Position numbers and translations under genes: made by a program. Below are positions 5,707-57,748 of a stretch of 64,000 nt of DNA, in pieces. This DNA is from Hyphococcus sp. Lineage in GTDB: Bacteria > Pseudomonadota > Alphaproteobacteria > Caulobacterales > Parvularculaceae. Below the pieces are notes generated by a model. That model was given only the letters and a program-made list of their open reading frames with translations. It was not told the origin of the DNA and ran no database searches. Location: NCBI GenBank assembly GCA_021776245.1, contig JAJFGF010000054.1, forward strand, positions 62,001-126,000, read 5' to 3'. How positions within the stretch are numbered: position 1 is the first letter of the stretch; each line of letters opens with the position of its first letter.

Positions 5707-6030
5707 ATGATAAAATCAGAACTCGTGCAAAAACTTGCCGACGAAAACCCTAATCTGTTTCATCGCGATATCGAGCGCATAGTCTCCATCGTGTTTCAGG
5801 AGATTACCGATGCGTTGGCGCGCGGCGACCGGGTGGAGCTAAGAGGCTTTGGCGCCTTCTCCGTTAAACATCGACCGGCGCGAACGGGGCGCAATCCGCG
5901 CAGCGGGGAGGCTGTGCAAATTGATGAGAAATGGTCGCCCTTCTTTAAAGCAGGTAAGGAGTTGCGCGACCGGTTGAACGGTAAAGGCCGGTTCTCGTCG
6001 CATGCGGGCGGCGCAGGAACGGCGCCATAA
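5707..6030 (+). CDS. ihfB: Integration host factor subunit beta
   Basis: A 107-residue nucleoid protein of the HU/IHF family that, with IhfA, binds and sharply bends DNA. The family features are clear: an N-terminal helical dimerisation region ([15 protein letters not shown]), the [20 protein letters not shown] strand and arm containing the Pro that intercalates into the minor groove, and the [13 protein letters not shown]-terminal helix. The IHF-beta character is shown by the NPRSGE arm tip and [10 protein letters not shown] Gly/Ala-rich tail of about 15 residues extends beyond the family core. A GAAGAG ribosome site lies just before the ATG. In related genomes ihfB is followed by a LapA-domain gene and trpF; here two extra genes sit in between. 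Confidence 0.95.
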
Positions 6031-19618: not shown

Positions 19619-19658
19619 TTGACGAATGAACAATTTATATATTAATTACTGTTAAACC
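19619..19658 (+). promoter_or_regulatory. AT-rich gpsA/TetR divergent promoter and possible operator
   Basis: The 65-base gap between gpsA and the TetR gene holds TTGACG, then an AT-only block (AATTTATATATTAATT, itself nearly palindromic) flanked by AACA and TGTT as an inverted pair. This would suit a promoter with a TetR operator. The -10 placement is ambiguous. Confidence 0.3.
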
Positions 19659-19669
19659 GCCGGGCCGAC

Positions 19670-20314
19670 ATGCCAACAGAACATCTGGATGAAACCGCAA
19701 AACAAATACTTCACGCCGCGAGCCGGCGATTTTTGCATTACGGTTACGGCAAAACGACCATGTCCGAGATCGCGACGGACTGCAATATGTCCACCGGCAA
19801 CCTTTACCGGTATTTTGCCTCTAAACTTGACATCGCGGAAAGCTTTGTACGTGAGCTCCGCCGGGAACAGATTGCACGCTTGCGCGCGGTGCTCGACGCC
19901 CCGGCCAGCACGCCTGCGGAGAAATTGCGTCAATTCTTTCTCCTGAAATTTAAGCTTGCCTATGAGCGATTTCATGACAAACCCAAAGCCTATGAACTGT
20001 CGAGCGAGCTTATCACGGAACGGCCAAAAGTGGCGCTTGAATGGGAGAACGCTGAAGGCCGGGTATTGGCCGAGATCCTGATGTCCGGCAATGACGACGG
20101 CAGTTTCGCCATAGAGAACGTGTCCAACACCGCAAAAATATTGCAGGACTCCGGGTATCGTTTCACCAGCCCGGCGGTCTTTCATGAGGGCGAGTTTGAT
20201 GAGCTGGCCGCGGAGCTCAATGGGGTCATTGACCTGATGCTGGATGGATTTGCCTGGCGCGCCGCGAAGAGCCCGACGGCCAGCAAGTCCGTTGCCTCGA
20301 GCTCAATTAGCTAA
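19670..20314 (+). CDS. TetR family transcriptional regulator
   Basis: A 214-residue regulator. The N-terminal DNA-binding domain is clear (AKQILHAASRRFLHYGYGKT, then MSEIATDCNMSTGNLYRYFA), with the STGNLYRYFASK recognition helix and following DIAESFV. The C-terminal ligand/dimer domain (residues 65-214) is helical and includes FHDKPKAYELSSELITERPK, as in a widespread alphaproteobacterial TetR subgroup. It is divergent from gpsA across an AT-rich 65-base gap and there is no obvious ribosome site before the ATG. Its target is unknown; autoregulation is likely. Confidence 0.92.
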   Translation: MPTEHLDETAKQILHAASRRFLHYGYGKTTMSEIATDCNMSTGNLYRYFASKLDIAESFVRELRREQIARLRAVLDAPASTPAEKLRQFFLLKFKLAYERFHDKPKAYELSSELITERPKVALEWENAEGRVLAEILMSGNDDGSFAIENVSNTAKILQDSGYRFTSPAVFHEGEFDELAAELNGVIDLMLDGFAWRAAKSPTASKSVASSSIS

Positions 20315-20467
20315 GTTAACGCAATATTATATCGCTTATTGCCGGGAATTCCCGCTCTCCGTGGCTGCGGATCCTGCAAAAATTGAAGAAATCCCAATGA
20401 TTTAGCGGCTCTGACGTCTATGATAGAATTTATGGTTCAAAAAAATGAATACTTAGCACAATGTTCA

Positions 20468-20496
20468 TTGACAATTCTTCAATGGGCCCTTATCTC
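20468..20496 (+). promoter_or_regulatory. Candidate sigma-70 promoter for the 38-residue peptide/RNA transcript
   Basis: A perfect TTGACA and a TATCTC box are separated by exactly 17 bases. The predicted start would lie about 100 bases before the small ORF, giving a leader that contains a CCTCCCC run at 20542-20548. Confidence 0.5.
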
Positions 20497-20603
20497 CCCG
20501 CTATCGCTGATGGAGACAGCGCCGCCACCGGACGGAGCGAACCTCCCCAAGCATCAAGAACAAGAAACGATCTATTGATCAGAATGAAAAGAGAGACCAA
20601 GCC

Positions 20604-20720
20604 ATGACCACATTTCGTAATTTTGCCGTCCAGGCCGGCGCCACCCTCGCTCTCGCGGGCGGACTGGGCGTCATTTTGTTTGCATTCGCCGAATACGCCA
20701 CCCGCGGCGTTATCGCGTAA
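20604..20720 (+). CDS. 38-residue membrane peptide
   Basis: A short frame from ATG 20604 to TAA 20718-20720. The peptide begins MTTFRNFAVQAG, has one hydrophobic helix at about residues 8-29 rich in Ala, Gly and Leu, and ends EYATRGVIA. A purine-rich GAAAAGAGAG stands about nine bases upstream. A promoter with perfect -35 lies 130 bases before it, and a C-rich structured stretch with a strong terminator follows. Reality as a protein is supported by the ribosome-site spacing and the compact transmembrane composition, not by known homologs. It could equally be the coding leader of a small RNA transcript. Confidence 0.55.
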   Translation: MTTFRNFAVQAGATLALAGGLGVILFAFAEYATRGVIA

Positions 20721-20840
20721 CGCGAAACTTCGAACCCCTGATCGCTGCGGCGTCGTCCCCTCCCCCCTGTTAGGACGCACCTCCCTAAGCCGCAGCGATT
20801 TACCCGGCGCGGAAGCTGTCCCTCAGCTTCCGCGCTTTTT
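20721..20840 (+). ncRNA. Candidate small RNA with C-rich (anti-Shine-Dalgarno) loops
   Basis: Directly after the 38-residue ORF, an 11-base stem (20741-20751 with 20789-20799) encloses an inner stem (CGTCC/GGACG) whose 14-base loop reads CCTCCCCCCTGTTA, and a side single strand ACCTCCCT at 20780-20786. A rho-independent terminator ends the transcript. Exposed CCUCC motifs between stems are the mark of the alphaproteobacterial 'cuckoo'/CcsR-type sRNAs, which are likewise processed from the 3' part of a small-ORF mRNA. The fold was derived by eye and homology to those RNAs is not shown. Confidence 0.45.
20807..20840 (+). terminator. Strong rho-independent terminator
   Basis: A perfect 12-base stem (GCGCGGAAGCTG with CAGCTTCCGCGC), a five-base TCCCT loop and five T residues. 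It terminates the small-peptide/sRNA transcript. Confidence 0.9.
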
Positions 20841-20992
20841 ATTGGCTGGCGCCGCTGGAATCGTTCTGGTCTGTAACCGCCTTAGGTACAAATCGCGACT
20901 TCAGGAAGTACGCGAGGCCTCATTAGCTGTTAACCGGCCTTTAAACGTATCAACCGTAATTACAGAATGGAGTTATGATTGCGAGGTCGCGT

Positions 20993-21424
20993 ATGGCGGC
21001 GTTCACAAGATTTGCCCTGGGCGTTCATATCCTTGCATTGCTCGCGTCCAAGCGTGATGGCGCCATGACGTCACAAACCATTGCCGCGAGCGCAAACACC
21101 AATCCCGCTTTCATCCGGCGGTTATTGGCGAAATTGAACAAAGCTGGCCTGATCAAATCGCAGCCGGGCAAAGGCGGCGGCAGCCAGCTCGCCAAAGGTC
21201 CAAAAAAGATCTCGCTGCTTGATATTTTCGAAGCGGTTGAGGCTGGCCGCATTGTTGCGGCGCCGAAAACATTCCCGGAAAACGGATGCTATGTGGCTGC
21301 CAATCTGGCGCCGGTTTTTCGCGACTTTACCAGCGATGCGGAAGTCGCATTTTTCTCAAGTCTTTCAGATGTTTCGCTGAAGCAAGTGGTGAAGAGCCTG
21401 AAAACCGCCGCAGCCAGGTCGTGA
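20993..21424 (+). CDS. Rrf2 family transcriptional regulator without Fe-S cysteines
   Basis: A 143-residue winged-helix regulator. Key stretches are FTRFALGVHILALLASKRDG, ASANTNPAFIRRLLAKLNKA (recognition helix) and the wing GLIKSQPGKGGGSQLAK, then ISLLDIFEAVE. Iron-sulfur Rrf2 proteins such as IscR and NsrR have three Cys in the region after the wing; here only one is present (ENGCYVA), so a cluster is unlikely and it resembles the YwnA-type branch. I choose ATG 20993 because GAGG lies six bases upstream; an ATG at 20975 has a ribosome site too close to it. It is downstream of the sRNA terminator and convergent with tsaD. Confidence 0.85.
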   Translation: MAAFTRFALGVHILALLASKRDGAMTSQTIAASANTNPAFIRRLLAKLNKAGLIKSQPGKGGGSQLAKGPKKISLLDIFEAVEAGRIVAAPKTFPENGCYVAANLAPVFRDFTSDAEVAFFSSLSDVSLKQVVKSLKTAAARS

Positions 21425-57557: not shown

Positions 57558-57722
57558 GCCTTTCCAAAAGGCTGCCGCGATAATTTCTGTCGCGCAGTTA
57601 AGATTTTCTCCGGTTGCGCGTCGCTTTCGGTTTTGTCGTTGACACGACCGCGCCGCGTCCGCCATGATGGCGGCGCGGGCAAACAGCGGACGCCCGCCCA
57701 GACGGCAATCCCGTCCAAGATC

Positions 57723-57748
57723 CGCTCCGATCCTGATGGATAGGAGCG
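57723..57748 (+). promoter_or_regulatory. Hairpin that buries the ribosome site of the 59-residue ORF
   Basis: CGCTCCGATCC and GGATAGGAGCG form an 11-base stem (one mismatch) with a TGAT loop. The AGGAG ribosome site of the next ORF (57743-57746 area) is in the 3' arm, so translation would need the stem to open, as in RNA thermometers or leader switches. Fold drawn by eye. Confidence 0.4.

Follow-up and report, generated by a model that had tools for sequence, protein, structure and literature searches.

A gene for a small membrane peptide, whose 3′ end forms a conserved RNA with C-rich loops, was identified in the window (the whole 64,000-nt stretch of DNA analysed here, from a 4.14 Mb genome in 76 contigs that belongs to the Hyphococcus/Marinicaulis group of Parvularculaceae). 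Promoter, open reading frame (ORF), CCUCC stem and C-rich-loop terminator recurred as one unit in 34 genomes from three genera. All 34 copies share one layout, in which a palindrome on the −35 box is followed by a leader, the small ORF, the C-rich stem and the terminator, and this unit is far above chance. We lean toward reading the whole as a TetR-repressed dual gene, which would encode a membrane micropeptide and a 3′ sRNA of the anti-Shine-Dalgarno type. An earlier note on this DNA had described a small-membrane-peptide gene followed by a CCUCC-loop RNA, and that core stood, while its RsmA- or RNase-linked role and its leader motif did not. It had also missed what likely controls the gene: a TetR operator, conserved and overlapping the −35 box, and a TetR gene just upstream that co-occurs with the locus.

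To survey the distribution of the locus, we used blastn, which found it in 20 of 27 congeners (the window itself excluded), and R1, a covariance model made from 21 sequences. R1 gave a strong match in 25 of 28 congeners, including four outside the model set (G013, G024, G002 and G017), and it also found the locus in eight of nine genomes of genus g6 and in the single g5 genome. There was no R1 match in genera g3, g4, g7, g8 and g9, and the one weak match in g2, located where a receptor-like gene ends, was spurious. Second RNA matches in G015, G063, G003, G005 and G028 were the 3′ ends of other genes or terminator only, and a 23-base match in G058 (L022) was a chance similarity within a coding gene. 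One locus (L105) was left out of counts of 33 because its small ORF overlaps the model match. True loss is an unsafe reading for G020, where gpsA was not found, and for G018, where gpsA was only 41% identical and the genome is 76% complete; in G005 and G064, the region was broken off at contig ends. As a separate observation, G015 carries a second R1-like hairpin (L113:2446-2545) with a UUCCUCCC loop and a CUCCCCC terminator loop at the 3′ end of an unrelated ORF.

In genera without the tetR/RNA pair, gpsA and tsaD were neighbours, with about 10–300 bases between the matched parts, and in the others the pair, often with an Rrf2 gene, filled this gap. Such a pattern would fit either a single ancestral insertion or loss of the pair from the other genera. 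In the window, the Rrf2-family regulator lies downstream of the locus (20975–21424); many relatives have it and some lack it. Control of this gene in cis was rejected, as Rrf2 is absent from several unit-bearing genomes and the terminator intervenes. Elsewhere in the window, an Rfam chrB-b RNA (RF03086) was found at 57675–57725 with 48.2 bits, above its gathering score.

The small ORF (20604–20720, plus strand) has 38 codons and encodes the single-transmembrane peptide MTTFRNFAVQAGATLALAGGLGVILFAFAEYATRGVIA, as the earlier note had read it. Among 28 close pairs, pN (0.01–0.19) was lower than pS (0.12–0.78) in every one, indicating purifying selection. When 21 peptide sequences were aligned, L, A, A-T and G positions were invariant. 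All measured copies were 38–40 aa long, with one hydrophobic segment and a best 19-residue hydropathy of at least 1.7 (mean 2.0). Matches from an HMM search were counted toward coding status as well. Relatives found with the peptide are named as Marinicaulis (now Hyphococcus), Parvularcula or Parvularculaceae. No Pfam or NCBIfam family scored above cut-off for the 38-aa peptide. In g6 the peptide was rewritten (e.g., MITTNASSFGVRFALAMFLSAVIAGGYLTAIGYLNPGFIA) and had diverged almost past recognition, and it still had one transmembrane segment and purifying selection; the operator, the C-rich loops and the terminator loop were retained there. Judged from these patterns of substitution and length, the ORF almost certainly codes for a protein.

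The promoter at 20468–20496 (plus strand) is conserved across relatives and consists of a −35 box TTGACA (20468–20473), a 17-base spacer and a −10 box TATCTC (20491–20496). The elements and spacing given in the earlier note were present, with the correction that TATCTC is a poor fit to TATAAT; a generic sigma-70 scan called no promoter at the locus. Across relatives, the −10 box followed the pattern TAnnTn, in which the T, the A and the fifth-position T were invariant in 33 aligned promoters, and because of this conservation, the promoter is very likely real. An operator-like palindrome of 26 bp, AATGAA-N14-TTCATT (20444–20469, no strand assigned), overlaps the −35 box. TGAA was located 18 bases ahead of TTCATTGAC in 32 of the 33 promoters, and the palindrome arms carried 1.5–1.7 bits per position, whereas the sequence upstream had 0.43 and the spacer 0.62. 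The exact N14 palindrome occurred once in the genome, at this promoter. A mismatch search found that the next best sites all carried at least two mismatches, so a TetR regulon outside the locus was rejected and TetR is likely a local regulator.

The predicted controller of the locus is the TetR-family gene at 19670–20314 (plus strand; TetR_N and TetR_C_27, Pfam E 1e-12). The closest PDB matches of its product were KstR2 (E ~1e-10), and no characterised member was close. An orthologue was present in all genomes with the RNA and in none without it, a perfect co-occurrence, and tetR adjoined the peptide-RNA locus in 33 of 34 loci. In the exception, G065 (L107), a rearrangement puts the TetR gene 13 kb off while operator, TetR and peptide-RNA gene are all retained, so that nature has itself put the regulatory link to the test. 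A promoter palindrome and an adjacent, co-occurring TetR gene, as in a TetR-regulated gene, were thus both found, with binding as a prediction, and TetR very probably controls the peptide-RNA gene. Repression would be the natural reading of its effect, as the palindrome overlaps the −35 box by two bases, the operator position being the basis for it. Upstream alignments also revealed a half-palindrome, TGAAC..., in the tetR promoter (19627–19648, plus strand), a possible autoregulatory site. It has the 14-base spacing of the main operator, with a right half that is degenerate in the window; the TGAAC half-site is conserved, and the full TGAA-N14-TTCA occurs in some species, which suggests that tetR may be autoregulated.

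Immediately past the stop codon of the ORF, the fold of 20721–20840 reached −55 kcal/mol, with z = −7.0 relative to dinucleotide-shuffled sequences. The structured RNA (20740–20800, plus strand), defined by fold and covariation, has an outer helix (20740–20751/20789–20800) and an inner helix (20752–20758/20773–20780). On the same strand lie the apical C-rich loop CCTCCCCCCTG (20759–20769), which is C-rich and mostly unpaired in homologues, and the 3′ bulge CCTCCCTA (20780–20787). The bulge is the most conserved anti-Shine-Dalgarno-like element, with CCTCCC in nearly all 34 sequences and a core whose unpaired probability is about 1 in the predicted fold. The strong terminator of the earlier note was confirmed at 20806–20836 with a T run; taken to 20840 (plus strand), this intrinsic terminator has a 13-bp stem, a C-rich loop and the T run.

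Covariation in relatives was strong. Across the 34 sequences, changes on both sides were observed at all 10 model pairs of the outer helix, at three of four of the inner helix and at six of 12 of the terminator helix, which was 98.5% paired. In the 34-sequence model alignment, which is fitted to the covariance model and hence biased toward its structure, 96.0% of pairing cells were paired, compared to 82.0% in shuffles and 34–45% when slid, and 19 of 26 pairs had changes on both sides. The double-change cells numbered 128 against 33 expected, and none of 500 shuffles reached the observed values for pairing, both-side changes or double changes. RNAalifold on a plain MAFFT alignment again recovered both the outer helix and that of the terminator, and 14 of 22 pairs showed double changes. 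From this covariation, selection on the RNA structure is virtually certain. A conserved ORF and a conserved RNA structure, the two marks of a dual-function RNA, were both found, and the promoter and terminator positions predict a single transcript for them.

The helices vary by compensation and the C-rich elements stay CCUCC-like. CCUCC was present in all 34 copies, with two or more in 24, and the CCUCCUCCC motif in none of them. Six-mers containing CCUCC or CUCCC had a mean unpaired probability of 0.90 across the 34 homologues, so the loops are exposed in the folding model as first proposed, and the objection that they might be paired fails. The third motif that the earlier note had pointed out, CCTCCCC in the leader (20541–20547), is present; it largely pairs when the full-length RNA is folded, is absent from other leaders and thus private to the window, which leaves a role for it in the design unsupported.

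These patterns bear on whether the peptide could be the sole product, with the hairpin and terminator protecting the mRNA or ending transcription and the C-rich loops having no partner. Purifying selection on the peptide is clear, it is always accompanied by the hairpin, and terminators are common at 3′ ends, all of which would suit such a gene. It explains poorly, however, why loops and bulge keep CCUCC while both helices change by compensation, why each copy has two or three separate single-stranded C-rich elements, and why these elements were retained in g6 while the peptide strongly diverged. We therefore regard a peptide-only gene as improbable. Still less probable is a toxin-like membrane peptide of the type I (TisB) kind, silenced by the TetR repressor and the RNA structure. 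The size and single transmembrane segment of the peptide agree with those of TisB/Ldr-like toxins, the operator is tight, and family f4 carries similar peptides of 30 aa in many tandem copies. Against this, neither an antisense RNA gene nor a complementary partner was noticed in an unsystematic look, the predicted fold does not sequester the start region, and the gene is a single copy with conserved inheritance at a fixed chromosomal site.

For the favoured dual gene, we propose that the TetR protein encoded next door would bind the palindrome and repress, and that its ligand would free the operator so that the transcript is produced. The peptide would insert into the inner membrane and probably modulate a membrane protein, and the 3′ part would serve as a trans-acting sRNA, in the form either of the whole mRNA or of a 3′ fragment processed from it. 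The CCUCC core is that of the 16S anti-Shine-Dalgarno sequence, and the redundant CCUCC elements, in mimicking it, could pair with ribosome-binding sites of the GGGAGG type and so reduce translation from a group of mRNAs. It is plausible that the RNA acts on ribosome-binding sites, with parallels in NfeR1 and sX13, and by this analogy we favour anti-Shine-Dalgarno action in trans by a modest degree. A GC-rich 3′ end can give rise to C-rich loops as well, which counts against the sRNA reading. Inhibition of the start of the own peptide by the loops is unlikely in the folding model, since the start region has no strong Shine-Dalgarno sequence and is largely unpaired. Nothing was found in favour of the RsmA-like or RNase-linked regulation suggested earlier; CsrA/RsmA binds GGA, not CCUCC. 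In the window genome, AGGGAGG-N4-9-ATG occurred 18 times, compared to three for the reversed control, and about 12 of the 18 sites precede real genes. The genes led by AGGGAGG include those for two TonB-dependent receptors, two Band_7 proteins, an MFS transporter and a histidine kinase, and are candidate targets only.

Weaker R1 matches were found in other families of the order. In family f3 (genus g11), two species (L125 and L127) have, at the identical place directly 3′ of a small multi-transmembrane ORF, a C-rich-loop hairpin (e.g., CCUCUCCCCCCUCC) and a C-rich-loop terminator. In f4, mainly in genus g22, many of the weaker matches were units of a 30-aa one-transmembrane peptide (L117–L131, e.g., L118:2055-2225 and 5806-5958) with the consensus MTKxxSxxAAxVLFAPVAxAxLxQAAQIVA. 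The last codons of this peptide form the 5′ arm of a C-rich-loop hairpin, a terminator that is often C-rich-looped comes next, and a GCATCC-N-GCATCT element recurs ahead of many copies. A profile of the peptide found 1–24 copies per genome in 21 f4 genomes (24 in G139, 23 in G211 and 17 in G123), often in tandem at about 130 bp, and none outside f4 among the 200 genomes searched. The f4 unit is apparently undescribed, its resemblance to the window locus may be convergence rather than homology, and the f4 arrays are the strongest lead from the survey. Tentatively, and at slightly less than even chance in our judgement, there may be an order-wide class of dual genes, in which a one-transmembrane micropeptide is joined to a 3′ C-rich-loop anti-Shine-Dalgarno RNA, single-copy and TetR-switched in Parvularculaceae and in up to 24 tandem and dispersed copies in f4. 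If true, this class would be a peptide-plus-riboregulator system without earlier description.

To our knowledge, no gene like that of the window is known in this bacterial group. The gene is compact and genus-wide, selection on the peptide as well as on the RNA is cleanly evidenced, and it has a dedicated regulator; it suggests that the coupling of a membrane micropeptide with an anti-Shine-Dalgarno loop arose or persisted outside DUF1127/CcsR loci. A joint role of peptide and RNA in one stress or transport response becomes testable.

We compared the locus with known sRNA families. Rfam gave no match at the gathering threshold, only weak sub-threshold sRNA matches, and the locus is undescribed in Rfam and in the literature found, as the earlier note had supposed. 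The ar7, ar14, CcsR1 and sX13 models each scored less than half their gathering scores, and the suhB/mmgR model gave 12–16 bits against 41.

In layout, the locus resembles CcsR1–4/CIN1 (cuckoo) of Rhodobacter, in the definition of papers that cite the original description. In one of these (PMC10253847), a small ORF is followed by CCUCC-motif RNAs, which are cut from the small-protein transcript, and a terminator. The cuckoo ORF is a DUF1127 protein (the RNA-binding CcaF1) under an RpoH promoter, whereas the locus here has a one-transmembrane peptide, a TetR operator and a shorter CCUCC(C) in all copies, and lacks CCUCCUCCC. No DUF1127 match was found for the ORF or in the entire window genome, as the earlier note's separation from this type would require, so CIN1 is not simply elsewhere in the genome. 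NfeR1/ar14 of rhizobia resembles the locus in its redundant, unpaired anti-Shine-Dalgarno motifs in hairpins with variable stems, and three such motifs block the ntrB start region (PMC10746234). Its three hairpins each carry CCUCCUCCC, it is controlled by LsrB/NtrC, and a peptide ORF is not mentioned there, whereas the locus here has one motif stem and a terminator. In Xanthomonas, the C-rich loops of sX13 repress mRNAs that have a G-rich motif close to their start (PMC3771888); the architecture and lineage of sX13 differ from those of the locus, and the consulted portion of that paper notes no micropeptide ORF. The hairpin and terminator hairpin of ar7/EcpR1 of Rhizobiales are like those of the locus, but the conserved ar7 loop UCCGCCGCAUCU (PMC4414408) is absent from the window RNA. 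SisA–D/ar8 of Caulobacter are alphaproteobacterial relatives with an anti-Shine-Dalgarno 10-mer (PMC12559287) and form a separate family.

True, if divergent, membership of the locus in the cuckoo/CcsR or ar14 families is very unlikely: here too CCUCC loops follow a small ORF by the same logic, and there is weak Rfam likeness, but the scores lie far below gathering for ar14 (RF02344; 27.4 for the g6 member L108, not among the matches listed for the window RNA, against 58.8), CcsR1 (RF02791; 11.3 for the window and 18.7 for L108, against 65.3), ar7 (RF02342; 24.5 bits for the window, where a search over 151 bases gave E 0.002, against 60) and sX13 (RF02232; 24.2 for the window and 22.3 bits, against 50), and there is one stem with loop and bulge instead of two or three motif-bearing hairpins. 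By sequence comparison, the locus is of the kind that joins a small ORF to a C-rich-loop RNA, and it is set apart from the ar7, ar14, CcsR1 and sX13 families by these sub-threshold scores together with the absence of DUF1127.
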